Shown: positions 132 through 20,532 of the stretch, piece by piece
Position numbering within the stretch: position 1 is the stretch's first letter
Layout: each line of letters begins with the position of its first letter
IMG/VR virus record: IMGVR_UViG_3300025138_000304
Coordinates: 1-25,946 of that record
Origin: a virus
DNA: 25,946 bases
Reading direction: 5' to 3' (one strand)
Translations under genes and position numbers: made by a program
The notes under the pieces: model-generated
Databases searched by the model: none
Seen by the model: only the letters and a program-made list of their open reading frames with translations
What the model was told of the DNA's origin: nothing

Positions 132-737
132 ATGAGCAAAAAGCTATTAATAGAAACTCATGCTATAAAGATATCTCCTTCCCAACTAACTGAAAACGTT
201 AGTAAGGAGAGTGGAAATCTTTTAGTTGAAGGTATTTTAGCTACGGCTGAGGTAAAAAATGGAAATGGTCGTTACTATTCAAAAGGACTATGGGACAGAG
301 AAATGGATAAGTACTCTGAACTAATTGAACAGAGACGTTCAATGGGGGAACTTGACCACCCAGAATCAACAGTTATTAACTTAAAAAACGTATCACATCT
401 TATATCAGAATATTGGTGGGATGGTGATAACTGTATGGGTAAGATAGAAATTTTACCTACCCCTTCGGGAAATATCCTTAAGGAACTAATTAAAAGTGGA
501 GTTACAGTAGGTGTATCATCTCGTGGTATGGGTTCATTAGAAGATAAAGGTGGAGTAATGGAAGTACAAGATGATTTTGAATTATTATGTTGGGATTTTG
601 TTTCAACACCATCAAACCCTGGTTCTTATATGCATACCTTAAATGAAGGTAAAAATATAGTTACATATGATTACACCAATGTAAATAAAGTAATCCACGA
701 AATCCTTTGTTCTAAAGGAAATTGTACTATTTTTTAA
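132..737 (+). CDS. 21: Prohead core maturation protease, T4 gp21-like
   Basis: This is a serine protease that cleaves scaffold and capsid proteins inside the prohead during head maturation. The 201-residue length fits the T4 family (about 210). Visible family features are GNGRYY (residues 44-49), GELDHP (72-77) with the likely catalytic His76, VGVSSRG (126-132) with the likely nucleophile Ser129 or Ser130, and WDFVSTPSNPGS (154-165), a conserved stretch near the active site. The ATG follows the upstream stop without a gap and has no Shine-Dalgarno sequence. Scaffold gp22 and capsid gp23 follow in the canonical T4 order, which strongly supports the call. Confidence 0.93.
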   Translation: MSKKLLIETHAIKISPSQLTENVSKESGNLLVEGILATAEVKNGNGRYYSKGLWDREMDKYSELIEQRRSMGELDHPESTVINLKNVSHLISEYWWDGDNCMGKIEILPTPSGNILKELIKSGVTVGVSSRGMGSLEDKGGVMEVQDDFELLCWDFVSTPSNPGSYMHTLNEGKNIVTYDYTNVNKVIHEILCSKGNCTIF

Positions 738-862
738 TTTTTACTTAATCTACATATACGTATAATCGCAATGTGTCATGAGTATCTAGATATGACACTA
801 AAATATATTATTCCCTATTACGATTTCTAATAATCGTATTTCACAAAAAAAATTTTGAGATT
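738..862 (+). promoter_or_regulatory. Structured leader between protease and scaffold genes
   Basis: This 125-nt gap holds a promoter-like box (752-766) and two inverted repeats. GTGTCAT at 773-779 pairs with ATGACAC at 792-798 (7 bp, loop 12). TACGATT at 819-825 pairs with AATCGTA at 832-838 (7 bp, loop 6). Neither is followed by a T-run, so they do not look like terminators. They would lie in the 5' leader of the scaffold/capsid transcript and could influence stability or translation; function is inferred only. Confidence 0.4.
752..766 (+). promoter_or_regulatory. Putative late promoter upstream of gp22-gp23
   Basis: The sequence acatatacgtataat contains TATAAT at 761-766 and resembles the recurring CATAT-N-TATAAT motif of this window, with two extra bases between the halves and without the trailing A-run. 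It lies 96 nt before the scaffold ATG. It is the most divergent of the twelve copies. Confidence 0.45.
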
Positions 863-1951
863 ATGGCAAACAATGATTTGTTAAAAGAAGCAATCGCTGA
901 TGCTAAAGCTGTTAAAGAAACTGCTATTGCAAACGCAAAACTTGCTCTTGAAGAAGCATTCACACCACATTTGAAATCTATGCTTTCAGCAAAATTAGAA
1001 GAAATGGACAAAGAAGACGTTGACGAAGGATACGATAAGTATGAAGAAGATGACGTTAAAGCAGAAATGTATTCTAAAGATGATATGAAAGAAGAGAGAG
1101 AAGATATGGATGAAGCTAAAGAAGAGCTTGATGAAATTGACCTTGACGAACTACTTGCAGAACTTGAATTGGATGAAGACAAACGTACAGATGCTGAAGA
1201 AGAAGGCTACTTGGACGGTATGAGAGACGAAAAAGCGGACTTGAAAGAGGACGAACGTACTGATGCTGAAGAAGAAGGCTACAAAGATGGCATGAAAGAC
1301 GAGAAAGAAGACATGGAAGACAAAGACGACGAGGAAATTGACCTTGAAGATATGTCAGAAGATGACTTAAAAGGATTCATTGAGGATGTTATTAAAGATT
1401 TAGTAGCAGACGGAACAATTGAAGCAGGTGATGAAGCAATGGAAGATGAAGAAGATGTTGTAGATGTTGAAGACGTTGAAGATGTGGATGTTGATGTAGA
1501 AATCGACGAAGAAAAAGACATGGACAAAGGTGAAACAGGTGTTGGAAACGAGGATGGAGACAGAGATGACTCTAGAATTGAAAAAGAAACCGAAAAAATG
1601 AGATTCAAAGAAGCAATTGATGAAATCAATGAGCTTAAAAAAGAATTAAATGAAGTTAACCTTTTAAATGCTAAACTTCTTTACACTAACAAAGTTTTTA
1701 AATCTAAAAACTTATCTGAAGACAAAAAAGTTAGAGTGCTTAAAGCATTTGACAAAGCGTCAACAGTAAAAGAAGCTAAAGTTATTTTTGAAACATTAAA
1801 CGAAGGTTTAGTATCAAAAACAGAAGCTATTGCAAGACCAAAAGGTGCTGCATCTAAAGCAACTGGAACAATAACTGAAGCTAAAAAACAACCAATAATT
1901 GAATCAAACGATGTTTACAACAGAATGCGTAAACTAGCTGGTTTAATTTAA
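863..1951 (+). CDS. 22: Prohead scaffolding core protein, T4 gp22-like
   Basis: This protein forms the internal scaffold on which the capsid assembles and is later degraded by the gp21 protease. It has 362 residues, longer than T4 gp22 (about 270). The N-terminus is helical and charged (residues 1-50). Residues 50-240 are extremely acidic and include a 24-residue tandem duplication beginning RTDAEEEGY at 108 and again at 132. The C-terminal third (about 245-362) is helical with NLSEDKKVRVLKAFDKAST, as in marine T4-like gp22 homologues, and ends RMRKLAGLI. It lies between protease and capsid genes. Its only nearby promoter box is far upstream, and the capsid gene 37 nt downstream is probably cotranscribed. 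Confidence 0.88.
   Translation: MANNDLLKEAIADAKAVKETAIANAKLALEEAFTPHLKSMLSAKLEEMDKEDVDEGYDKYEEDDVKAEMYSKDDMKEEREDMDEAKEELDEIDLDELLAELELDEDKRTDAEEEGYLDGMRDEKADLKEDERTDAEEEGYKDGMKDEKEDMEDKDDEEIDLEDMSEDDLKGFIEDVIKDLVADGTIEAGDEAMEDEEDVVDVEDVEDVDVDVEIDEEKDMDKGETGVGNEDGDRDDSRIEKETEKMRFKEAIDEINELKKELNEVNLLNAKLLYTNKVFKSKNLSEDKKVRVLKAFDKASTVKEAKVIFETLNEGLVSKTEAIARPKGAASKATGTITEAKKQPIIESNDVYNRMRKLAGLI
1184..1327 (+). repeat. 72-bp in-frame tandem duplication in the scaffold gene
   Basis: Two adjacent 72-bp copies start at 1184 and 1256. Each encodes the 24-residue pattern RTDAEEEGYxDGMxDEKxDxxE. The first part of the unit is nearly identical at the DNA level and the rest has diverged, so this is not a very recent duplication. 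Confidence 0.8.
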
Positions 1952-1988
1952 AACTTAAAAATTAATTAACCTTAAAAAACTTAAAAAA

Positions 1989-3683
1989 ATGAGCTTAAAT
2001 ACTCTTTTAGAAAGCGCAAACCCTTATCAGTCTTTACAGTCTGACGCGGCTAGATTAGCTAGCAAATGGGAAAAAACAGGTTTATTGGAAGGAATGAATG
2101 GTGCCCACAAAAATAATATGGGTCTTATTCTTGAAAACCAAGCTAAACAACTTGTAGTAGAATCATCACAAACTAGTGGTGGTGTAGGAAATGGTGGAAC
2201 ATTCTCTTCACAAACTGGCGTAAACGTTGGTGGACAGTGGGCAGGTGTTGCTTTACCATTAGTACGTAAAGTATTTGGACAAATTGCTGCACAGGAATTT
2301 GTATCAGTACAACCAATGAATTTACCTTCTGGTCTTGTATTCTTTTTAGATTTCCAATATGGATCTTCTAAGACTCCATTCGCAGCAGGTTCTTCATTAT
2401 ATGGTGACAAAGGTGCAGGTGATAATCCTTTTGGAAACACTAACACAGGTGGACTTTATGGATCAGGTAGATTTGGATATTCAATCCAAAATACTCAATC
2501 TTTAAATGTAGTATCAACTGCCGCTAATACAACTTGGGATGAAGTAAACTTTAATAGTGATTTTTCTGCTTCTGTAGCAGCTGGTGACTATACAACTATT
2601 TCAGTACCAACTTCATCTTTAAAATTTGGTGATTTTGATGGTGTAAAAGGATTTAATATTTTCTCTGGATCTGCAACTGCAGCTGTAATTACAGGATCTA
2701 ATGGTCAAGTACCTGGTTCACAAGTAGCTGAATTCACATCTTATGATGGTGGAGCAAATGTAAAATTCGTTGTACTAGATACAGCATTTACAAATGATTT
2801 ATTAGTAGCTGTAAACTACCAAATACAACCACAAGATAATAACAGAGGTGATTTTGAAGCTGGTAACCCACATCCAAACTCATTTAACGATGAATCAGGA
2901 GCTAACTGTTGCCCAGACCAAGTAATTCCAGAAATCAACATTCAGATGCAATCATCTGCAATAGTTGCTAAAACTAGAAAACTTAAAGCTGTATGGACAC
3001 CAGAATTTGCACAGGATTTAAATGCATACCATGCATTAGATGCTGAAGCTGAATTAACTTCAATCCTTAGTGAGTACATTTCATTAGAAATCGATTTAGA
3101 AATTCTTTCTATGTTGATCGATGGTGCTGCTGCAGGAACTGAAACTTGGTCGGCTGTAAACAACATCTCTATCACAGGTACAGGTGCTACTATCGCAGAA
3201 ACTAATTTAGGATTCTATAATAGTCAAGGACAATGGTTCCAAACATTAGGAACTAAAATTCAGAAATTAAGTAACATCATTCACCAGAAAACTCTACGTG
3301 GTGGTGCTAACTTTATGGTTGTTTCTCCAACTGTAGCAACTGTTTTGGAATCAATTCCAGGATTTGCTGCTGACACAGATGGTGATGCTGCTAAAATGAG
3401 CTATGCATTTGGTGTACAAAAAGTTGGTGCTTTAAATAGCCGCCAAAAAGTATACAAAAACCCTTACATGACTGCTAACACAATCCTATTAGGATACCGT
3501 GGTACTCAGTTTTTAGAAAGTGGTGCTGTATTTGCTCCTTACATTCCGTTAATCATGACTCCACTTGTATACGATCCAGATACGTTCGTACCAAGAAAAG
3601 GTCTATTAACTAGATATGCTAAGAAAATGGTTCGTCCAGAATTTTATGGAACAATCAACGTAGCTGGTTTAGATACTTTATAG
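1989..3683 (+). CDS. 23: Major capsid protein, T4 gp23-like
   Basis: This protein builds the hexameric shell of the head. At 564 residues it is somewhat longer than T4 gp23 (521). Segments that match the T4 family are VQPMNLPSGLVFFLDFQYG (about 106-124), then AKTRKLKAVWTPEFAQDL followed by a DAEAELTSILS stretch, and near the C-terminus APYIPLIMTPLVYDPDTF plus GLLTRYAKKMVRPEFYGTI. The N-terminal prosegment has two possible gp21 cleavage sites of the (I/L/V)-x-E type, after Glu49 (ILE) and after Glu58 (VVE). The latter lies at the position of the known T4 site, before the QTSGG stretch. The gene has no promoter motif of its own, so it probably shares the gp22 transcript, and it is closed by a strong terminator. 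Confidence 0.96.
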   Translation: MSLNTLLESANPYQSLQSDAARLASKWEKTGLLEGMNGAHKNNMGLILENQAKQLVVESSQTSGGVGNGGTFSSQTGVNVGGQWAGVALPLVRKVFGQIAAQEFVSVQPMNLPSGLVFFLDFQYGSSKTPFAAGSSLYGDKGAGDNPFGNTNTGGLYGSGRFGYSIQNTQSLNVVSTAANTTWDEVNFNSDFSASVAAGDYTTISVPTSSLKFGDFDGVKGFNIFSGSATAAVITGSNGQVPGSQVAEFTSYDGGANVKFVVLDTAFTNDLLVAVNYQIQPQDNNRGDFEAGNPHPNSFNDESGANCCPDQVIPEINIQMQSSAIVAKTRKLKAVWTPEFAQDLNAYHALDAEAELTSILSEYISLEIDLEILSMLIDGAAAGTETWSAVNNISITGTGATIAETNLGFYNSQGQWFQTLGTKIQKLSNIIHQKTLRGGANFMVVSPTVATVLESIPGFAADTDGDAAKMSYAFGVQKVGALNSRQKVYKNPYMTANTILLGYRGTQFLESGAVFAPYIPLIMTPLVYDPDTFVPRKGLLTRYAKKMVRPEFYGTINVAGLDTL

Positions 3684-8920: not shown

Positions 8921-10117
8921 ATGGCAAATTGGAAAAAGGTAATAGTTAGTGGATCTAATGCCGAGTTAGCACAATTATCCTTAACGGACTTATCAACACA
9001 AGCAACAGAAGACACAGTATTAACTATTAACACAGCCGGTGTTATTGGTACAAGAGAAAATGCTGCTAGTTCAGGAACATCAGGAACTTCAGGTTCAAAT
9101 GGATCAAGTGGTTCATCGGGTACATCAGGAGCAGATGGAACAAGTGGCTCATCAGGTGCTTCAGGAACTTCAGGTTCTTCAGGTTCTTCAGGAACTTCAG
9201 GAGCAGATGGTACTTCAGGAACTTCAGGTTCATCAGGTTCTTCAGGAACTTCGGGTTCAAGTGGTTCTTCAGGAACTTCAGGAGCAGACGGTTCATCAGG
9301 AACATCAGGATCTTCAGGTGCATCAGGTACAAGTGGTACTTCAGGTTCAAGTGGTTCATCAGGAACTTCAGGAGCAGATGGCTCTTCAGGAACTTCTGGA
9401 GCAGATGGTTCTTCAGGAACTTCAGGTTCATCAGGTTCTTCAGGAACTTCAGGAGCAGATGGTACTTCTGGTTCATCAGGTTCAAGTGGTTCATCAGGTA
9501 CTAGTGGATCAAGTGGTAGTTCTGGTACATCGGGTTCTTCAGGAGCAGATGGAACAAGTGGTAGTTCAGGCTCATCAGGTACATCAGGTAGTTCAGGCTC
9601 AAGTGGAACAAGTGGTGTAATTAATATTACCAATTCAGGAGTTAGAAGAGTAATAACTGATATTGATGGTGATAGTGCTAGAGCTAATACAAATCTTACA
9701 TTTAATGATGCTGGAAGCCCAGAGGGTGATGGATTATTAAATGTTATTGGTGATGTAATTATCACACGTGATTTAACAGTGCAAGGTACAGCATCTTTCC
9801 AAAATTCCGAAAATTTATTAATAAAAGATAGATTTATATTACTTGCTTCAGGTTCAAATTCAGCCGGAGATGGGGGTATTGTAATACAACAAGGAACACA
9901 AGATTATGGTGATGCTTTTGCTTATGATGGTCTTTCATCATTACGTTGGGGTATAACAAGTTCATTCCATGCAAGTGGTTCAGGATTTACACCAGATGCC
10001 TTTATGGCAACAGTAGTTGTTGGAACAACTAATGACCCAGATGATGCACCTACAAGGTATGATCAAGAAGGAAATATATTTGTAGCCAATAACCAGGATA
10101 TTTATATTTATTCTTAA
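8921..10117 (+). CDS. Collagen-like (Gly-X-Y) fibre protein, shorter paralogue
   Basis: A 398-residue probable tail-fibre protein. Residues 1-51 form an N-terminal domain starting MANWKKVIVSGSNAEL, shared with the protein at 10650, and probably the virion attachment part. Residues 52-231 are 60 uninterrupted Gly-X-Y triplets made mainly of GTS, GSS and GAD, with no proline. Residues 232-398 are a C-terminal domain with VRRVITDIDGD, VIITRDLTVQGTASFQN (a shaft-like module also seen at 5218), LLIKDRFILLASGS and DGGIVIQQG, as in phage fibre tips. Host-receptor contact is inferred. It has its own promoter box and precedes two small unknown ORFs. Confidence 0.85.
   Translation: MANWKKVIVSGSNAELAQLSLTDLSTQATEDTVLTINTAGVIGTRENAASSGTSGTSGSNGSSGSSGTSGADGTSGSSGASGTSGSSGSSGTSGADGTSGTSGSSGSSGTSGSSGSSGTSGADGSSGTSGSSGASGTSGTSGSSGSSGTSGADGSSGTSGADGSSGTSGSSGSSGTSGADGTSGSSGSSGSSGTSGSSGSSGTSGSSGADGTSGSSGSSGTSGSSGSSGTSGVINITNSGVRRVITDIDGDSARANTNLTFNDAGSPEGDGLLNVIGDVIITRDLTVQGTASFQNSENLLIKDRFILLASGSNSAGDGGIVIQQGTQDYGDAFAYDGLSSLRWGITSSFHASGSGFTPDAFMATVVVGTTNDPDDAPTRYDQEGNIFVANNQDIYIYS
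9074..9613 (+). repeat. Gly-X-Y array, 60 triplets
   Basis: This is a 540-bp in-frame array of 9-nt triplets (GTS, GSS, GAD, GAS, GTS), with no interruption of phase and no proline codon. Serine codons are mixed (TCA, TCT, AGT, TCG), so DNA identity between units is moderate while the protein pattern is strict. The low complexity keeps other frames open, including a spurious long minus-strand frame. Confidence 0.93.
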
Positions 10118-10649: not shown

Positions 10650-13600
10650 ATGCCAAATTGGAAAAAAGTAATCACCAGTGGTAGTAACGCTGAGCTGAAT
10701 GAAATAAAATTAACAGGTCTTTCAACCCAAGGATCTGAAGAAACAACCCTAGTAATAAATAGTGATGGTACTGTAGGTACTAGAGAAAATGCTGCATCTA
10801 GTGGTACATCAGGTTCTTCTGGAAGTTCAGGTACTTCTGGATCAAGTGGTTCATCAGGTACTAGTGGCTCATCAGGTTCTTCAGGTACTAGTGGCTCATC
10901 AGGTTCTTCAGGTACTTCAGGTTCATCAGGTTCTTCAGGAACTTCAGGAGCAGATGGTTCATCAGGAACAAGTGGTACTTCAGGTTCCAGTGGATCAAGT
11001 GGTACTTCAGGTACTTCGGGAGAAGATGGTACTTCAGGAACATCAGGAACATCTGGTAACTCAGGTAGTTCAGGATCTTCAGGAACTTCAGGTTTAAGTG
11101 GTTCATCAGGTACATCAGGAACCTCAGGTTCATCTGGATCAAGTGGTACTTCAGGCTCAAGTGGTTCATCTGGAACATCTGGAAATTCAGGAACAAGCGG
11201 AACTTCAGGTTCATCCGGAACTTCAGGAGCAGATGGTTCATCAGGTACATCAGGAACTTCGGGCTCAAGTGGTTCATCAGGTACATCCGGTAATTCAGGT
11301 TCTTCAGGTTCATCAGGAACATCTGGGACTTCGGGAGCAGATGGCTCTTCAGGCTCTTCAGGAACTTCAGGAGCAGACGGTTCATCAGGAACATCAGGAA
11401 CTTCAGGTTCCAGTGGATCAAGTGGTACTTCAGGTAATTCAGGAACATCAGGCTCAAGTGGTTCATCTGGAATATCTGGTTCAAGTGGTTCATCAGGAAC
11501 TTCTGGAGCAGATGGTTCTTCAGGAACTTCAGGTACATCAGGATCAAGTGGTTCATCAGGTACATCAGGTAATTCAGGAACAAGCGGAACTTCAGGTTCA
11601 TCCGGAACTTCAGGTTCAAGTGGTTCATCAGGAACTTCAGGAGCAGATGGTTCATCAGGGACTTCAGGTACATCAGGCTCAAGTGGTTCATCTGGAACAT
11701 CTGGAAATTCAGGAACTAGTGGTTCATCAGGTACCTCAGGTTCAAGTGGTTCATCAGGTACATCAGGTAATTCAGGTTCTTCAGGTTCTTCAGGAACTTC
11801 AGGAACATCAGGATCAAGTGGTTCATCGGGTACATCGGGTAATTCAGGGACCAGTGGAACTTCAGGTTCATCAGGTACTAGTGGTTCATCAGGAACTTCA
11901 GGATCATCAGGATCTAGTGGAACTTCAGGACAAGATGGTAACTTTGGTGGTGCTACATTTGATTATACTTTTAGTGTATCCACTGTAATTTCAAATCCTG
12001 GAGGAGGAAATATAAGATTAAATAACTCAACCCAAACATCAGCTACAATATCATCAATTAGTGAAACTGATGATGATGGAAATTCTGTTCAATCATTTTT
12101 TGAAACAATAGATTCATCAACATCAGCTATAAAAGGTCATATGCGATTATCAGATAAAGATGATCCTTCTGATTTTATATTATTTGCTATTGACGAATTA
12201 GTTGATCAAGGAGCTTGGTGGCAATTTACAATAATATTTGAATCCCAAGGGGGTAATGCTTTAACAAATGGTGAAGATATTATAGCATCATTTGTAACAA
12301 CAGGTGATAGAGGTGATGATGGTACATCAGGTTCAAGTGGTTCATCAGGAACTAGTGGTTCATCAGGAACTAGTGGTTCATCTGGAACTTCAGGTTCAAG
12401 TGGATCTTCAGGAACTTCGGGTTCATCTGGTTCTTCAGGAACAAGCGGTACTTCTGGTAATTCAGGTAGTTCAGGTTCATCAGGAACTTCGGGTTCTTCG
12501 GGTTCCTCAGGAACATCTGGAAATTCAGGAACTAGTGGTTCATCAGGTACCTCAGGTTCAAGTGGTTCATCAGGTGTTTCAGGTTCAAGTGGTTCATCTG
12601 GAACCAGTGGTACTTCAGGTAATTCTGGTTCATCGGGATCAAGTGGTGTATCAGGTTCATCTGGTTCATCAGGAACTAGCGGTAATTCGGGAACAAGCGG
12701 AACTTCAGGTTCTTCAGGAACTTCAGGTTCATCTGGTTCATCAGGAACTAGCGGTAATTCGGGAACAAGCGGAACTTCAGGTTCATCAGGAACTTCAGGT
12801 TCATCAGGTTCAAGTGGTACATCCGGTAACTCAGGTTCTTCAGGTTCTTCAGGAACATCAGGAAGTTCAGGCTCAAGTGGTACATCGGGGAATTCAGGTA
12901 CATCTGGTACTTCTGGATCCTCGGGAACATCTGGTAATTCAGGTTCATCTGGATCAAGTGGTAATTCAGGTTCAAGTGGTTCTTCAGGAACATCAGGTTC
13001 AAGTGGTTCTTCAGGAACATCAGGAAATTCAGGTTCAAGTGGTTCATCAGGTACATCAGGAGCAAATGGAACAAGTGGTACTTCAGGTTCATCAGGTACA
13101 TCAGGATCCAGTGGGTCAAGTGGCGTATCAGGTTCTTCAGGTTCTTCAGGAACATCAGGAACATCTGGTAACTCAGGTAGTTCAGGATCTTCAGGAACTT
13201 CAGGTTCATCTGGTTCTTCAGGAACTTCAGGAACATCTGGTAACTCAGGTAGTTCAGGTTCATCAGGAACTTCGGGTTCTTCGGGTTCCTCAGGAACATC
13301 TGGAAACTCAGGTAGTTCAGGTTCATCAGGAACCTCTGGTAATTCAGGTTCATCTGGTTCTTCAGGAACAAGTGGTGCTGCTACTATTGGAAATAATGGT
13401 GATAATAGAGTAATAACAGCTACTGGTAATCCTGGATCAGTAAATGGTGAAGCAAATTTATTATTTGATGGTAGTATATTAAGTATTGATGGTTATATTG
13501 AGTACGAAGAACCAACAAGTGCTTCTGAAAGTGTTGGAGAAATAGTAACTTTTGGTAGCTTTAGTACTATTAATGGTAATATTTCAGCGGGATCTCTTCT

Positions 13601-13910
13601 TGTTAGTTTTAGTTCAATTTCTGCTCTTAATTGGAAATTAGCAGAAAATGATTTTGAAAGTAATTCATCAGGAATGTTAGGAATAGCTTTAGGTACTAGT
13701 ATTAGTAGTGGGGTTTTAATTAGAGGAATAGCTAAATTTTCTGCTTTTCCCAACTCATATGGTGCTCCTTTATATATTTCATCTACTGCAGGAGAAGTAA
13801 CTACTAGTGCTCCTGCTGGTTCTGGAGATATAGCTAGGGTAATAGGTTATAGTATTGAAAATGGGAAGATTTATTTCCACCCAGATAATACTTGGGTTCA
13901 AAGAGCTTAA
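10650..13910 (+). CDS. Giant collagen-like (Gly-X-Y) fibre protein
   Basis: A 1086-residue probable tail fibre. Residues 1-51 (MPNWKKVITSGSNAEL...) are paralogous to the start of the protein at 8921. Residues 52-429 are 126 Gly-X-Y triplets. Residues 430-551 are a non-repeat beta domain with FDYTFSVSTVI, IKGHMRLSDKDDPSDF and GEDIIASFVTTGDRGDDG, a type I recall between collagen blocks of other phage and prophage fibres. Residues 552-908 are 119 further triplets. Residues 909-1086 are a C-terminal domain with NRVITATG, LLFDGSILSIDG and VIGYSIENGKIYFHPDNTWV. X is mostly Ser/Thr/Asn/Ala and Y almost always Ser; proline is absent. The Ser/Thr-rich arrays are possible substrates for the glycosyltransferases encoded downstream. 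No transmembrane or signal sequence is present. Confidence 0.88.
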   Translation: MPNWKKVITSGSNAELNEIKLTGLSTQGSEETTLVINSDGTVGTRENAASSGTSGSSGSSGTSGSSGSSGTSGSSGSSGTSGSSGSSGTSGSSGSSGTSGADGSSGTSGTSGSSGSSGTSGTSGEDGTSGTSGTSGNSGSSGSSGTSGLSGSSGTSGTSGSSGSSGTSGSSGSSGTSGNSGTSGTSGSSGTSGADGSSGTSGTSGSSGSSGTSGNSGSSGSSGTSGTSGADGSSGSSGTSGADGSSGTSGTSGSSGSSGTSGNSGTSGSSGSSGISGSSGSSGTSGADGSSGTSGTSGSSGSSGTSGNSGTSGTSGSSGTSGSSGSSGTSGADGSSGTSGTSGSSGSSGTSGNSGTSGSSGTSGSSGSSGTSGNSGSSGSSGTSGTSGSSGSSGTSGNSGTSGTSGSSGTSGSSGTSGSSGSSGTSGQDGNFGGATFDYTFSVSTVISNPGGGNIRLNNSTQTSATISSISETDDDGNSVQSFFETIDSSTSAIKGHMRLSDKDDPSDFILFAIDELVDQGAWWQFTIIFESQGGNALTNGEDIIASFVTTGDRGDDGTSGSSGSSGTSGSSGTSGSSGTSGSSGSSGTSGSSGSSGTSGTSGNSGSSGSSGTSGSSGSSGTSGNSGTSGSSGTSGSSGSSGVSGSSGSSGTSGTSGNSGSSGSSGVSGSSGSSGTSGNSGTSGTSGSSGTSGSSGSSGTSGNSGTSGTSGSSGTSGSSGSSGTSGNSGSSGSSGTSGSSGSSGTSGNSGTSGTSGSSGTSGNSGSSGSSGNSGSSGSSGTSGSSGSSGTSGNSGSSGSSGTSGANGTSGTSGSSGTSGSSGSSGVSGSSGSSGTSGTSGNSGSSGSSGTSGSSGSSGTSGTSGNSGSSGSSGTSGSSGSSGTSGNSGSSGSSGTSGNSGSSGSSGTSGAATIGNNGDNRVITATGNPGSVNGEANLLFDGSILSIDGYIEYEEPTSASESVGEIVTFGSFSTINGNISAGSLLVSFSSISALNWKLAENDFESNSSGMLGIALGTSISSGVLIRGIAKFSAFPNSYGAPLYISSTAGEVTTSAPAGSGDIARVIGYSIENGKIYFHPDNTWVQRA
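10803..11936 (+). repeat. Gly-X-Y array block 1, 126 triplets
   Basis: A continuous in-frame array from Gly52 to Asp429 with frequent GTS-GSS-GSS nine-residue super-units and occasional GAD, GNS, GED, GLS, GIS and a final GQD. The exact multiple of three residues shows there is no phase break. Confidence 0.92.
12303..13373 (+). repeat. Gly-X-Y array block 2, 119 triplets
   Basis: A continuous array starting GDR-GDD-GTS and ending GTS before GAATIG. It is rich in GNS and includes GVS and GAN. It contains segmental DNA duplications described separately. Confidence 0.92.
12651..12794 (+). repeat. Near-perfect 72-bp tandem duplication inside array block 2
   Basis: Copies at 12651-12722 and 12723-12794 differ at a single base (TCT versus TCA, both serine). 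Neighbouring triplets differ far more, so this looks like a recent slippage or unequal recombination event adding eight triplets. Confidence 0.85.
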
Positions 13911-14694: not shown

Positions 14695-15570
14695 ATGAAT
14701 ATTATTTTCCAAATAGATGGTGGTTTAGGTAAAAGTATTATGGCAACGGCCATGGTAAAAGTAATAAAAAAACACTATAAAAATTCTAATTTAATAGTAG
14801 TAACATCTTATACAGATGTATTTTTAAACAATCCTTATGTATTTGCAGTACATCAAATTGGTCAACTAAATGGTTTATATCTTAAATATATTAAAGATAA
14901 AGATTGTAAAGTTTTTGCTACTGAACCTTATAAAGATACAGATTTTATAACAGAAAAACCTATAAATTTACTTAAAACTTGGTGTAAAATTTTAGGGTTA
15001 AGTTATAATAATGAACAACCCCAAATATATTTAACTCAACCTGAGATAGATTATTTTTCTCCTTATTATCTTAAAGATAAACCTATTTTAACCATTCACC
15101 CACATGGTGGTCCAGAAGGACTTGGGTATCAGTATACATGGACAAGGGATATACCAACTCCAATTGTAAAACAAGTAATAGAATATTATAAAGATTCCCA
15201 TTTAATAATCCATATTAAGAGGAAAGACCAAATAACATATGAAAATACTCTTCAAGCCCTAGATGGGTATAGAAGTATAGCAATATTATTACAAATGTCT
15301 GATAAAAGATTACTTATAGATTCTTTTACGCAACATATGGCTACAGCCTTAAATTTAAAATCAACTGTATGTTGGGTTACAACATCCCCTAAAATATTTG
15401 GTTATGAAATGCATGATAATGTATTAGCAGAACCCTTTACTAAAGAACTAGATTATACTTCTAAAATATATAATGCTTTTTCTTTATCTGAAGATATACA
15501 CTCTATTCCTTATAATGATTTGAATGAAGTATTTAATATAGACAAAATAATCTCCACTTTAAACCTATAA
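14695..15570 (+). CDS. GT9-like (heptosyltransferase-like) glycosyltransferase
   Basis: The 291-residue protein resembles GT-B enzymes of the ADP-heptose:LPS heptosyltransferase family (GT9). It begins IIFQIDGGLGKSIMATAMVK, the Gly-rich opening loop of that family, followed by NLIVVTSYTDVFLNNP. A second family feature is DSFTQHMATALNLKSTVCW (residues 209-227), matching the D-S-x-x-x-H-x-A-A-x-L motif. HPHGGPEGLGYQYTW lies near the domain junction. It is the first gene of a four-gene cassette; the next gene begins 2 nt after its stop. No motif copy precedes it; the 58-nt gap has only an A/T-rich TTTACGTATATTGG stretch. Sugar donor and acceptor are unknown. Confidence 0.75.
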   Translation: MNIIFQIDGGLGKSIMATAMVKVIKKHYKNSNLIVVTSYTDVFLNNPYVFAVHQIGQLNGLYLKYIKDKDCKVFATEPYKDTDFITEKPINLLKTWCKILGLSYNNEQPQIYLTQPEIDYFSPYYLKDKPILTIHPHGGPEGLGYQYTWTRDIPTPIVKQVIEYYKDSHLIIHIKRKDQITYENTLQALDGYRSIAILLQMSDKRLLIDSFTQHMATALNLKSTVCWVTTSPKIFGYEMHDNVLAEPFTKELDYTSKIYNAFSLSEDIHSIPYNDLNEVFNIDKIISTLNL

Positions 15571-15572
15571 AA

Positions 15573-17861
15573 ATGTTAGATAAAAAACCAAAATTATATC
15601 TCCATAGTTGTTATATAGGAACAACAGGATTTAATAATCATACTAGAGATTTTTTTAGAGAAATATCTAAAACATATAAAATAAAAGTTAGAAATTTTAC
15701 TGTTGGTAAACATTGGAAAGGTTTAGAAGACGAACCCTTTAATAAAGAAGAATATTTAACAACTTCTGATAAAATTTTTCTAGATCAACAAACATATTTT
15801 AATAATGAACATCAATTAAATGATTTTCCAATTTATCAAAATTACCCAAATGTTTTTACCCCTGATCTTAATATAATTTTAGCTGAAGTAAATCACCATT
15901 ATTTTTATCAAAACTATAAAGGTCCAAAAATAGGATACACAGTATGGGAAACAACACGATACCCTGATTATTTCTTTGATAAATTAAAAGAATATGACCA
16001 ATTATGGGTACCATCAGAATGGCAAAAACAATGCAATATAGAGCAAGGAATGCCTGAAGATAAAATAAAAGTAATACCAGAAGCAGTTGATTCAAATATT
16101 TTTCACCCGAACCCTGATGTAACTTTATCTGAATATGATGATGGTAGGTTTAAATTTGTCCATTTTGGTAGATGGGATTATAGAAAATCTACTAAAGAAA
16201 TAATAGAGGCGTTTTTAGAAGAATTTGGAGAAGATGAACCCATAGATTTAGTTTTATCTATAGACAATAGATTTGCAAAGGATAAATTAGAGACTACTGA
16301 AAATAGATTAAAACATTATAAACTTTTAGATCCTAGATTAAAAATCAAACATTTTCCCTCTAGAGAAGACTATGTAAAATATTTACAAAAGGGTCATGTG
16401 TTTTTATCATGTGCACGTTCTGAGGGTTGGAATTTACCCTTAATAGAAGCAATGGCATGTGGTACACCTTCTATTTATTCTAACTGTAGTGCTCAATTAC
16501 AATTTGCAGAAGGTAAAGGGTTACCCGTTAAAATAACAGGTAAAAAACCTGCTATAATGGGTGAATATAGTACATTCTCTCAATCTGATATGACAGGTGA
16601 ATTTTATACTCCTGATTATGAAGACTTAAAAAAAGTAATGAGGGATGCTTATAAAAATTATGATAAACATAAAAAACAAGCATTAAAAGAATCTAAAGAA
16701 ATAAGAGATAAATTTACTTGGGAAAGAGCTGCAAAACTAGCGAGTATAGAAATTGATAAATTATATAATAATCTTCCTGAAAGTAAAGTAGAAATAAGTT
16801 TTAATGAAGGACCTAAAGTTCAAACTTATGGTTCTAAAAATAAAAAATATTTTGTAGAGTTTATTGATTCACGAAATAATAAAGTTATTCATTCTTCTAC
16901 TATTACAAATAATATGTGGATTACGTGTAATAAACAATATTATGTCCCTTGGATTATTAAAATTAATGGGGAAATAGTACATAAATTAAATTTAAAAAAT
17001 AACGTTGTTAAAATATCATTAGACTCAAAATCAGTAGGTGATACTTTAGCATGGGTACCCCAAATTTTAGAATTTCAAAAAAAACATAAATGTAAAATAA
17101 TAGCTTCAACTTTTCACAATGAGTGGTTTGAAAATTTGGAAGCATATAAAAGTATTAGGTTTATACAACCCAATAGCCCCTTTGAAGCTTATGCTCATTA
17201 TACGATAGGATGGTTTAAAAACAATGAAAAATGGGATGAAGGTTTTAAAAACCCAAACTCACCTAATACTATCCCCTTAATTCAGACTATTACAGATATA
17301 TTAGGTTTACCATATAAAGAAATTAACAAAGGTGTTAATTTTACCCCAGGTAAAAGACCTATAAAAGGAAAATATATTTGTATAGGACCTAAATCAACAG
17401 CAGGTTTAAAAGAATGGCCTTACCAAAATTGGAGAGAACTAGCAAAAAAATTACACAAAAAAGGATATAAAATAGTTAATTTATCTTATGAAGGATTTAA
17501 AGGAACTAATATAATTAATAAACAAAAATTAAATTGGGATAAAACATTTAATTATTTACATCATGCAGATTTATTTATAGGATTAGGATCAGGTTTATCT
17601 TGGGTTAATTGGGCTTTAAATAAAGAAACAGTAATGATTAATAATTTTATCCCCTATGGTTATGAATTTACTAGTTATTTAACTAAAATCGAAAATAATT
17701 CTGTATGTAATAATTGTTGGGTAAGTAAAGATTATACTTTTGATGCTGGTGATTGGGATTGGTGTCCTAAAAATAAAGGAACCAAAGACCAACATATTTG
17801 TCAGAAATCAATAACAGTAGATCAAGTATATAATAAAGTTTTAAATTTATTAAATGAATAA
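15573..17861 (+). CDS. Fused GT4 glycosyltransferase + TibC/BAHT-like heptosyltransferase
   Basis: A 762-residue two-enzyme fusion. The N-terminal part (about 1-390) is a GT4-type GT-B enzyme: IGYTVWETTRYPDYFFDKL, DQLWVPSEWQK, FVHFGRWDYRKS, and the E-x7-E motif SEGWNLPLIEAMACGTPSI with Glu284 and Glu292. The C-terminal part (about 395-762) resembles bacterial autotransporter heptosyltransferases (TibC, Aah): a beta domain (KYFVEFIDSRNNKVIHSS, YYVPWIIKING), VGDTLAWVPQILEFQKKH, GPKSTAGLKEWPYQNW, LFIGLGSGLSWVNWAL, and a four-cysteine cluster Cys712-x2-Cys715-x15-Cys731-x11-Cys743 with DWDWCP. In TibC such cysteines bind iron. That family O-glycosylates serines of repetitive adhesins, usually from ADP-heptose. 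Here fibre Ser-rich arrays are the obvious candidate acceptor; that is inference. It overlaps the next gene by 8 nt. Confidence 0.85.
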   Translation: MLDKKPKLYLHSCYIGTTGFNNHTRDFFREISKTYKIKVRNFTVGKHWKGLEDEPFNKEEYLTTSDKIFLDQQTYFNNEHQLNDFPIYQNYPNVFTPDLNIILAEVNHHYFYQNYKGPKIGYTVWETTRYPDYFFDKLKEYDQLWVPSEWQKQCNIEQGMPEDKIKVIPEAVDSNIFHPNPDVTLSEYDDGRFKFVHFGRWDYRKSTKEIIEAFLEEFGEDEPIDLVLSIDNRFAKDKLETTENRLKHYKLLDPRLKIKHFPSREDYVKYLQKGHVFLSCARSEGWNLPLIEAMACGTPSIYSNCSAQLQFAEGKGLPVKITGKKPAIMGEYSTFSQSDMTGEFYTPDYEDLKKVMRDAYKNYDKHKKQALKESKEIRDKFTWERAAKLASIEIDKLYNNLPESKVEISFNEGPKVQTYGSKNKKYFVEFIDSRNNKVIHSSTITNNMWITCNKQYYVPWIIKINGEIVHKLNLKNNVVKISLDSKSVGDTLAWVPQILEFQKKHKCKIIASTFHNEWFENLEAYKSIRFIQPNSPFEAYAHYTIGWFKNNEKWDEGFKNPNSPNTIPLIQTITDILGLPYKEINKGVNFTPGKRPIKGKYICIGPKSTAGLKEWPYQNWRELAKKLHKKGYKIVNLSYEGFKGTNIINKQKLNWDKTFNYLHHADLFIGLGSGLSWVNWALNKETVMINNFIPYGYEFTSYLTKIENNSVCNNCWVSKDYTFDAGDWDWCPKNKGTKDQHICQKSITVDQVYNKVLNLLNE

Positions 17862-19296
17862 AAAGAATAAATTTACATGGATAACAGGTGGAAATGAAAG
17901 CTACTTATCTATGGTAAAAATATTAGCTAAAAGTTTACTAAAGTATTCTAAATACAATCTTATAGTGTATAGTTTTAATTGTGATTCTACAATTGATTTA
18001 CCTAATGTAACTAATAAAAGAATTGATTATATACCTAAACCTACGTCAAAATCTACACATGAACCAGACCTATTTAGTAAAGATTATTCTATTTACTTTG
18101 CTAAATACTTAGCAAGTTTAGATTCATTAAATGAAAACTTTAGTAATTTTGCTTGGATAGATGGGGATGCCTTTGCAACTGAAAATATAGATTCTTCACT
18201 ACATTATTTACCTTTTTTAAAAGATTATCCTTTATTTATGCGATATTTTAACCCGGATATAGCTCAATGGAGACAACATAATGGTGTAAGGTTAGAGGGT
18301 AGATATGGTAATGAATTAGCTTCAATAAAAGGTATAAACAGAAACCCTAATAATAAATTAATAGCAACTGGGTTTTATTTTTACAATAAAGATAGTAAAT
18401 CATTTTTTGAAAAATGTTTAGAATGGAACAAAGAATTAAACCAATACTCAGTTAAAATCTTTACAGATGATAATGCTTTCTCAGAAGAAAGAGTAGCTAA
18501 TAATATATTATGGGAAGAAAATAAAAAAGAAAACTTACCTGTTACTTGGAATAATTATTATACCCCGGAGGAAGATACTGTAGTTAACTCTTATTTTTTA
18601 AAAAAAGGATTTGATGTAATGTATAATACAGTTACATTAGAACCTTATTTTATCCATGGGCCTGACCCATCAGTTACACCTAAAAATGCCAATATGTTAA
18701 ACAAAGCATTCCAGGATTATCAACTAAAAAAATTAATGATAGTTGCCCATCCAGATGATGAATTAATATTTGGTGGTGCCGAATTGATAAAACATGGTCC
18801 AGAATATAAAGTTATTTGTCTTACTAATAAATCCAATAATATTAGAAATAAAGAATTTGAACAGGTAATGAAAAAATTAAATGTAGGTTCTTGGGAGATG
18901 TTTGATTATGAAGATACATTATATCCTACTCAACAATTTGATTTAGAAAATATTTTAATGAGTAGAAAATGGGAAAAAATAGTTACTCATAATCCTATAG
19001 GTGAATATGGTCACCCACAACACAAACAAGTATTTGATACTGTACTTAATATTACTAATGATTTTTATGTGTTTGGTAAATCCCAACAAAAATTAGACCA
19101 AAATATTTTGGATACTAAAAATAGTTTACTTACATTGTACACGTCGGAAATACCTATTATTGATCAGTTACTAACTAATAATGGTGACTGGTTTAAAAGT
19201 AGTGATAGTACTATTAATTACATAGAACATGAATATATAGAGAAGTACAATAAAAAAAAAGACAAAAATAATTATATAAAATGTTATGAAAAATAA
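17854..19296 (+). CDS. Fused GT-A glycosyltransferase + PIG-L/LmbE-type deacetylase
   Basis: A 480-residue bifunctional protein. Residues 1 to about 285 look like a nucleotide-sugar transferase of GT-A type: KFTWITGGNESYLSMVK, FAWIDGDAF with the metal-binding DGD at 103-105, KLIATGFYFYN and a late FIHGPDPS. Residues about 290-420 are a PIG-L/LmbE deacetylase: MIVAHPDDELIFGGAEL with AHPDDE at 298-303 and GEYGHPQHKQVF (383-394, His387 and His390), the zinc-binding and catalytic motifs. PIG-L enzymes remove acetyl from N-acetyl-hexosamines, so one chain might transfer a HexNAc and deacetylate it to leave a free amine; the sugar is inferred. The start overlaps the previous gene by 8 nt, and the end overlaps the next by 11 nt. 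Confidence 0.85.
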   Translation: MNKKNKFTWITGGNESYLSMVKILAKSLLKYSKYNLIVYSFNCDSTIDLPNVTNKRIDYIPKPTSKSTHEPDLFSKDYSIYFAKYLASLDSLNENFSNFAWIDGDAFATENIDSSLHYLPFLKDYPLFMRYFNPDIAQWRQHNGVRLEGRYGNELASIKGINRNPNNKLIATGFYFYNKDSKSFFEKCLEWNKELNQYSVKIFTDDNAFSEERVANNILWEENKKENLPVTWNNYYTPEEDTVVNSYFLKKGFDVMYNTVTLEPYFIHGPDPSVTPKNANMLNKAFQDYQLKKLMIVAHPDDELIFGGAELIKHGPEYKVICLTNKSNNIRNKEFEQVMKKLNVGSWEMFDYEDTLYPTQQFDLENILMSRKWEKIVTHNPIGEYGHPQHKQVFDTVLNITNDFYVFGKSQQKLDQNILDTKNSLLTLYTSEIPIIDQLLTNNGDWFKSSDSTINYIEHEYIEKYNKKKDKNNYIKCYEK

Positions 19297-20245
19297 TTTA
19301 GTACTAATTCTTTCTCATTGTGATACTAAAGAAAAAAAGGAAATATTAGAAGACAATATTAAAAAATTAAAATTTAATAACTTTGATATTTTATTATTAT
19401 CCCATATACCTACCCCTTTACACATACAGGAATCAGTAGAATATTTTATATATGATAAAAGTAATCCCATAATTAATTGGCCTGAAAGGGGAATGGTTTT
19501 TTGGAAAAAAATATTGGGTGGTATTAATTATCGTTTACAAACTATATATCCTGACTATGGTTGGACTGCCTTTAATCAAATATTACTAGGTGGTAATTTA
19601 GGTTTATCTTTAGATTATGATTACTTCAGTTTTATAAATTATGATATTCAATTAACAGATTCAATAATTGAAATGTTAAATAATCCTGTTCCATTTTTAA
19701 CTTCTACGGTTCAACCTGCTTATGAGTCTAAACCTAGATACCCAAGCTTTATGCTTAATATTTTAAATAGAAAAAACCTTAAATCTCTATTACCTATAAT
19801 TAATAAAAAACATTATATGTGTGATACCCTTCCATGGAAAAAAGAAGGCAAATTCAAATCAGCTGAAAATTATTGGGAACATTTAATAACTAACTTTTCC
19901 CATACTATTTACCCAGAGGCTGTAGGGGATTTAATTAATTTTGATAATTTTAGTACTATGTTTAATTATAGTAATACTGATAAATTTAAAATATTTTTTC
20001 AAAATAATAACACTCATAATACTATTATAAATAATGGGGTTCCTGGGGTTTTAGTTTATGATATTAATATTTCAAATTTAAAGTTGGTGGTTAATGATGA
20101 GTATACTTTTATAGAAAAAGGAAAAAATGAACTAATAGATTTGCCTGAAGTTAAAAAAATAGGATTTATGATAGATAATGAATACATAGATTTTACAGAA
20201 AAATATAAAAAATCAATTTATCAAAAAATAGATTTAGTGGAGTAA
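19286..20245 (+). CDS. Putative glycosyltransferase, last gene of the cassette
   Basis: The 319-residue protein starts LVLILSHCDTKEKKEILEDN and continues FDILLLSHIPTPLHIQESV. This opening (strand, then helix, then strand plus SH-[IT]P) is like that of GT-A type transferases of phages and some bacteria. DYFSFINYDIQL (about 111-122) could supply a DxD-like acidic loop, here reduced to N-Y-D. The C-terminal part is AT-rich, Asn/Lys-rich and unassigned. Assignment rests on weak fold resemblance plus cassette membership. No membrane segment is present. A promoter box lies just downstream, so this gene ends the unit. Confidence 0.6.
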   Translation: MKNNLVLILSHCDTKEKKEILEDNIKKLKFNNFDILLLSHIPTPLHIQESVEYFIYDKSNPIINWPERGMVFWKKILGGINYRLQTIYPDYGWTAFNQILLGGNLGLSLDYDYFSFINYDIQLTDSIIEMLNNPVPFLTSTVQPAYESKPRYPSFMLNILNRKNLKSLLPIINKKHYMCDTLPWKKEGKFKSAENYWEHLITNFSHTIYPEAVGDLINFDNFSTMFNYSNTDKFKIFFQNNNTHNTIINNGVPGVLVYDINISNLKLVVNDEYTFIEKGKNELIDLPEVKKIGFMIDNEYIDFTEKYKKSIYQKIDLVE

Positions 20246-20277: not shown

Positions 20278-20532
20278 ATGAGTAAAAAAATTAAATTATC
20301 AGAAGAAGAATTAACAATTCTTAGAGAATATCAAAAAAACCAAAATGCAATTACTTTTGACTTAGGACAAGTTGATATCCAAAAAGCATTTTTAGAAGGT
20401 CAAAGAGCTTCAATTTTGGATGGTTTAGCAGATTTACAAGAAAAATCAAATAAAACAGCTAAAGAACTTCAAAAAAAGTATGGAGAAGGAAATATAGATT
20501 TAGAAACAGGGGAATTTATTACCCCAGAATAA
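20278..20532 (+). CDS. Small coiled-coil protein of the tail module
   Basis: The 84-residue, highly charged, helical protein has ELTILREYQKNQNAITFDLG, VDIQKAFLEGQRASILDGL and EKSNKTAKELQKKYGEGNID. I recall close relatives of this pattern (ITFDLGQ, KYG-x-GNID) as uncharacterised small proteins in marine T4-like phages. It has promoter boxes immediately before and after it and sits just before the sheath gene. A tail-assembly or chaperone role is possible, but nothing in the sequence proves it. Confidence 0.75.
   Translation: MSKKIKLSEEELTILREYQKNQNAITFDLGQVDIQKAFLEGQRASILDGLADLQEKSNKTAKELQKKYGEGNIDLETGEFITPE

Follow-up and report, generated by a model that had tools for sequence, protein, structure and literature searches.

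Described systems closest to the locus

The closest described enzymes are the autotransporter heptosyltransferases TibC and AAH (BAHT; NCBIfam TIGR04414), in which a beta-barrel, a GT-B core and a four-cysteine finger are combined. In the crystal structure of TibC the iron ligands are Cys339, Cys342, Cys358 and Cys370 (eLife 2014, PMC4358343). D110 is the catalytic base and T226, K230 and W305 are donor residues (these and the following positions in TibC numbering). R286 hydrogen-bonds adenine N1, and replacing it by Ala removes most or all of the activity (PMC4358343). The beta-hairpin thumb of TibC joins dimers into a dodecamer, and the thumb and F368 are the dodecamer-assembly features.

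Two further systems are relevant to the substrate. In Clostridioides difficile, sgtA adjoins bclA3, and the SgtA enzyme attaches O-GlcNAc to threonine or serine within collagen repeats (PMC7157674). This glycosyltransferase gene beside that of a collagen-like G-X-Y repeat protein is a precedent for both the layout and the chemistry proposed here, but the donor of SgtA is UDP-GlcNAc and no likeness to TibC is on record for it. Glycosylation of phage particle proteins, our proposed outcome, is known from mycobacteriophages, where, as PMC12619734 relates from Freeman 2023, the glycans sit on capsid and tail-tube C-termini, whereas collagen-like fibre shafts are proposed here. The papers found contain no description of glycans on phage collagen-like shafts.

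The window, i.e. the whole stretch of 25,946 nucleotides that was analysed (viral record IMGVR_UViG_3300025138_000304), encodes a protein that shares the barrel, core, finger, catalytic base and donor residues of TibC/AAH. It differs from them in being fused to a GT4 glycosyltransferase, in having lost R286 and F368, in its shorter thumb, and in having collagen-like repeat proteins as neighbours with no autotransporter seen. Because the domain has the TibC fold, and because its phage and bacterial relatives occur beside Ser/Thr-rich Gly-Ser-Ser/Gly-Thr-Ser repeat proteins, it probably serves to glycosylate the tail-fibre shafts of the phage itself. We consider it fairly probable that the protein is a bifunctional protein O-glycosyltransferase which acts on these collagen-like shafts and then extends the glycan. 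If this is true, glycosylated collagen-like shafts are a feature of the fibres of many aquatic T4-like phages, with consequences for receptor binding, stability and host-range evolution, and GTSGSS-type bacterial lipoproteins gain a modifying enzyme.

Organisation of the gene and predicted fold

The gene at 15573-17861 (+) is an uninterrupted ORF of 762 amino acids from ATG to stop, with the following parts:

15573-16742 (+): GT4-type glycosyltransferase domain, residues ~1-390 of 762; EX7E motif E284...E292; Pfam PF00534 4e-10, PF13692 8e-9
16755-17858 (+): TibC/BAHT-like domain, residues 395-762, with N-terminal beta-barrel, GT-B catalytic core and four-cysteine finger
17706-17801 (+): four-cysteine (iron-finger) segment with Cys712, 715, 731 and 743, aligned with TibC Cys339, 342, 358 and 370

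The N-terminal half gave the PF00534 (Glycos_transf_1) match at 4e-10, and the columns of its EX7E motif were invariant in an alignment with 11 relatives. Residues 405-756 matched TIGR04414 (hepto_Aah_TibC) with an E-value of 4.7e-61 and 206.8 bits, just above the curated cut-off of 200 bits; the close phage relatives L050 and L012 scored 189 against the same cut-off. TibC (4rap) was also matched by phmmer (E 8e-35), and the motifs DWDWCP, LGSGLSWVNWAL and GDTLAWVPQ were found in the protein. A frameshift artefact or a chance fusion was rejected because the fused ORF is intact in 61 distinct viral loci. With the intact ORF and the two profile matches, the preliminary description of a GT4 fused to a TibC-like domain was borne out, as was the likeness to TibC that it had proposed for a profile search with residues 395-762; an intact GT4 joined to a complete TibC-like domain is confirmed.

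AlphaFold2 modelled the full-length chain from 11 sequences with a moderate pLDDT of 72.8, the GT4 half likewise being only moderate. When this model was searched with Foldseek, 21 TibC chains came top and GT4 enzymes next, and the N-terminal half thus shows both the EX7E motif and the GT-B fold of GT4 retaining glycosyltransferases. The TibC-like domain alone, modelled with 97 sequences, reached a pLDDT of 95.9 (90-95 in the finger segment) and a pTM of 0.92. VIA-align placed this model (residues 10-368) on TibC 4rb4 with Z 39.8 and an rmsd of 1.7 Å for 346 of 368 residues, the runners-up being a GT9 enzyme (Z 21.1), WaaF (20.0) and WaaC (18.7). Since the match extends over 346 residues, barrel, core and finger segment are all covered, and the beta-barrel, GT-B catalytic domain and finger that characterise BAHT are found in a single fold. 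Comparison of a predicted structure with TibC had been set beforehand as the test that could refute the assignment, and the model agreed, cysteine-bearing segment included.

The four cysteines have exactly the spacing C-x2-C-x15-C-x11-C that had been read from the sequence as TibC-like, at aligned positions. In the printed TibC chain the family cysteines are at 339, 342, 358 and 370, the same numbers as the published iron ligands. They were kept in 79/80 phage relatives and in 45/45 bacterial homologues, and we infer that the finger of the 762-aa protein binds iron.

Departures of the phage branch from TibC

Residues were compared in an alignment of 78 phage-branch and 45 bacterial TibC-like domains. 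D110, K230 and W305 were universal across both sets, and D110, T226, K230 and W305 were all invariant in the 78 relatives of the window's branch. At position 286, Arg was present in 0/78 phage-branch domains compared with 41/45 bacterial homologues, the window protein having Thr. The thumb segment (252-284) comprised 23 residues in 77/78 phage-branch domains against 33 in TibC, i.e. ten fewer; a shortened segment, of 24 residues, also occurs in eight of the bacterial homologues. F368 was replaced by His in 74/78, including the window protein. With R286 lost, the thumb shortened and F368 changed to His, this branch may depart from TibC both in its donor sugar and in its assembly. ADP-heptose is not to be assumed as the donor, because R286 is lost, and judged by the defining features that were examined, the window protein is TibC-like but no BAHT strictly speaking, and is better not classed as one.

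The profile TIGR04414 is named for autotransporter heptosyltransferases, but the phage branch is without the residues that define activity and assembly, and its neighbours point to collagen-like repeats. The earlier reading of the protein as an autotransporter heptosyltransferase thus stood as far as fold and family are concerned, and fell short where R286, the full thumb and F368 are missing and the linked proteins are Ser/Thr-rich collagen-like repeats. Among the annotated ORFs of the window (head, neck, collagen-like fibre, sheath, tube and glycosyltransferases; the contig is a fragment) there was no partner autotransporter gene, and an autotransporter-type substrate in the window was rejected for this reason.

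These residues also bear on the view that the protein is an ADP-heptose-dependent O-heptosyltransferase for structural proteins of the phage, with the substrate as its sole difference from TibC. Such a view accommodates the TIGR04414 score above cut-off and the conservation of D110, T226, K230, W305 and the four cysteines, but not the absence of R286 in 78/78 members of the window's branch, a change that as an Ala mutant costs TibC all or most of its activity (PMC4358343), nor the thumb ten residues shorter in 77/78 and the missing F368. R286 was kept in other phage branches (L177 type and LR756501), and one related contig encodes a nucleotidyltransferase that resembles RfaE2, with a score of 115 bits that stays below the cut-off, both of which speak in its favour; on balance we regard it as a possible but unlikely account. 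A search for ADP-heptose genes of the phages' own gave RfaE2-like matches, sub-threshold only, in two longer relatives. RfaE2 itself was found in a single MAG in which an 80% relative is encoded, where it must be considered that phage contigs in MAGs do not name their hosts.

Distribution and architecture of the relatives

The preliminary description knew of no well-studied phage example; the window protein is not, however, a lone one, since at least 598 viral stretches in a viral-contig scan encode relatives of the TibC-like protein. The present reading makes a testable system of what had been a large family of phage genes from aquatic settings without a name. Three architectures were found in viruses: stand-alone proteins of ~362 aa, GT4-TibC proteins of ~762 aa and GT4-TibC-(PIG-L ORF) proteins of 1241-1248 aa. 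A GT4 partner was present in 84/84 distinct viral loci, 61 of which have it fused in one ORF and 23 directly upstream, which supports the earlier idea that one chain could carry out two sugar steps. A quick tree requires the label to switch between phage and bacterium three times or more, and the bacterial homologues form two clades, one of them the TibC/Acetobacter clade and the other closer to the phages.

Some contigs are filed under cellular organisms. L101 and L105, from Winogradskyella and Flavobacteriales MAGs, are phage-like, the former with tail sheath and tube and the latter with the same phage-type gene order; their filing hints at Bacteroidota hosts for their branch. A contig of a Candidatus Pacearchaeota MAG (L108) encodes at 997-3345 a 783-aa protein whose C-terminal TibC-like domain has R286, and no repeats were seen near this gene.

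Gene neighbourhood in the window

The window is a T4-like structural block with protease, capsid, neck, fibres, glycan cassette, sheath and tube. Its closest cultured phage is Flavobacterium phage immuto (NC_055915; major capsid 55%, sheath 54%). Besides the fused gene, the following features were considered:

8921-10117 (+): putative substrate, fibre/structural protein of 398 aa; 183 residues in G-X-Y runs (27 GSS, 23 GTS); Pfam Collagen 6e-27
10650-13910 (+): putative substrate, fibre protein of 1086 aa; 741 residues in G-X-Y runs (112 GSS, 95 GTS, 22 GNS); Pfam Collagen 4e-103
14695-15570 (+): upstream cassette ORF of 291 aa, GT9-like look at its N-terminus; weak phrog_8954; often precedes the GT4-BAHT gene
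17854-19296 (+): N-terminal domain plus PIG-L de-N-acetylase; Pfam PF02585 9e-12
19286-20245 (+): cassette ORF of 319 aa; weak tblastn match (1e-6) to L002 5944-6297, inside the Mel-JY01 GT4-BAHT polyprotein
20278-20532 (+): small conserved protein of 84 aa between cassette and sheath; homologue in immuto just upstream of the sheath, and in other loci

Together the two fibre ORFs contain 924 residues of G-X-Y repeats, mainly GSS and GTS. The ends of ORF 10650-13910 are homologous to the immuto tail-fibre proteins gp052/gp047, and the C-terminus of ORF 8921-10117 to the immuto virion structural protein gp055 and a structural protein of Microcystis phage Mel-JY01. Immuto is a matched negative: it shares the homologous fibre ends with the window phage, but neither G-X-Y repeats nor a GT4-TibC-like gene was found in it.

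For ORF 14695-15570 there was no Pfam match and the PDB sequence search was empty; it is a conserved neighbour in L009 and L028, and a similar-looking ORF also occurs in the enzyme-less loci L188 and L234. A PDB sequence search with ORF 17854-19296 gave no match either. The whole ORF of this type is fused to the GT4-TibC gene in L009, L012, L028 and L033 (1241-1248 aa). Between the collagen-like fibre and the GT4-TibC gene of L028 (4979-8695) are encoded a GT4-like protein, a GT25 (PF01755 2e-24), a methyltransferase and a 2OG oxygenase of PhyH type. In other settings, collagen is modified by GT25 enzymes and by hydroxylases.

Linkage to repeat proteins in bacteria

Outside the TibC/Acetobacter clade, an ORF for a secreted or lipoprotein (G-S/T-X)n repeat protein (short, GTSGSSG type) lay beside the TibC-like gene in 11/12 loci, compared with 0/~40 loci within that clade (Fisher 2e-10); the phage-like L101 and L105 as well as L115 were left out of this bacterial count. 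Strict 7-triplet repeat matches were rare genome-wide, and in seven of the eight bacterial genomes that had them all of them, among the matches listed, adjoined the gene. The exception was Methylobacter BlB1, where they were ~16 kb off and a degenerate repeat was adjacent to the gene. Within one order of 109 genomes the enzyme was encoded in 6, of which 5 had the repeat, as against 0/103 enzyme-less genomes, with one Cys-coding microsatellite set aside. Genomes so related are no independent samples, but the pairing was also seen in Methylobacter, Polaromonas, Arenicellales and Schekmanbacteria. In L102, L104, L107, L111 and L114 the lipoproteins or secreted proteins beside the TibC-like gene carry tails composed solely of (GTS/GSS)n, in some cases with an acidic run at the end, and are otherwise without annotation. 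A literature search for the repeat motif together with a TibC-like enzyme found nothing relevant.

That the sister genes in bacteria have repeat proteins as partners, and not LPS operons, weighs against a role of the cassette in modifying the host surface glycan during infection, e.g. as a superinfection block, as has been proposed for pelagimyophage glycosyltransferases. This role has been published for glycosyltransferase-rich tail regions of T4-like marine phages (PMC7029224), and PIG-L, GT25 and methyltransferase genes lie nearby in the relatives. However, TibC-type domains are protein transferases and the gene sits within the virion structural block, and we consider the proposal improbable here.

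Linkage to repeat proteins in phages

Enzyme and Ser/Thr repeats were paired in at least four phage branches: that of the window, L177/L186/L203/L215, Mel-JY01 and the 735-kb phage LR756501. In a viral sample anchored on tail tube, sheath or fibre, and partly fetched with a fibre query, repeats occurred in 11/20 loci with the enzyme versus 3/24 without it (p 0.004). No Ser/Thr repeat was found within the stretch available in the other 9/20 enzyme-positive loci, which are fragments, and three loci had repeats and no enzyme. An ancestry-aware test of enzyme against repeats on the sheath tree found too few independent pairs and had no power, and the phage-side association does not survive it. With few independent pairs and repeat-free enzyme-positive fragments, the phage association by itself is therefore suggestive, and it is the bacterial linkage that carries the substrate argument. 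Collagen as a universal partner within the available stretch was rejected, as 18/20 selected enzyme-positive contigs (up to 53.7 kb, all fragments) had no collagen match. Repeats were also not found near the enzyme gene of LR756504, a fourth huge-phage relative.

A different substrate among the virion proteins (sheath, tube or capsid) would resemble the mycobacteriophages with glycans on capsid and tail tube. In the window's branch the 84-aa protein and the sheath follow directly on the cassette, even where no collagen-like fibre is visible, and glycosylation of phage virions exists according to PMC12619734, citing Freeman 2023. In Mel-JY01, on the other hand, the GT4-TibC-like gene is ~24 kb from the sheath and next to a repeat fibre, and the bacterial relatives have repeats without a phage tail; the probability of such a substrate appears low to us. 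In the GenBank record PP395634.1 (L002), minus-strand ORFs are annotated at 1-651 and 739-2298, antisense to a GSSGTSG repeat ORF at 635-3052 (+). They are probably misannotated, and the record misses the fibre for this reason.

Proposed mechanism and donor supply

For the reading that we prefer, O-glycosylation of the phage's own fibre shafts, the TibC-like domain would use a nucleotide sugar to glycosylate Ser/Thr side chains of the (Gly-Ser/Thr-Ser)n shafts encoded by ORFs 8921-10117 and 10650-13910. O-glycosylation would be initiated in the cytoplasm, before virion assembly. The fused GT4, probably together with the downstream PIG-L-containing ORF, would then extend or trim (de-N-acetylate) the glycan. 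We infer both the G-S/T-S repeats as substrate and the order of the two sugar steps. A glycosyltransferase for DNA hypermodification is very hard to believe, since, many phage glycosyltransferases that target DNA notwithstanding (discussed in PMC12619734), the protein has the full TibC architecture including beta-barrel and finger, its gene lies in a structural block, and no modified-base synthesis gene was seen among the window ORFs.

On a wider scale, the fibre-shaft glycosyltransferase may belong to a separate, non-autotransporter TibC-like branch dedicated to (Gly-Ser/Thr-X)n repeats, for and against which we see even chances. This branch would include the bacterial enzyme-lipoprotein pairs, would have been acquired at least three times by tailed phages and fused to GT4, and would have abandoned the adenine-reading donor site in the window's branch; it would constitute a previously undescribed O-glycosylation system.

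On a related 48-kb contig (L158), positions 700-1788 encode the RfaE2/TagD-like nucleotidyltransferase (115 bits, below cut-off) in a trio with a HAD phosphatase-like protein and a mannose isomerase-like cupin. A sugar-nucleotide supply is a possible role for this trio.
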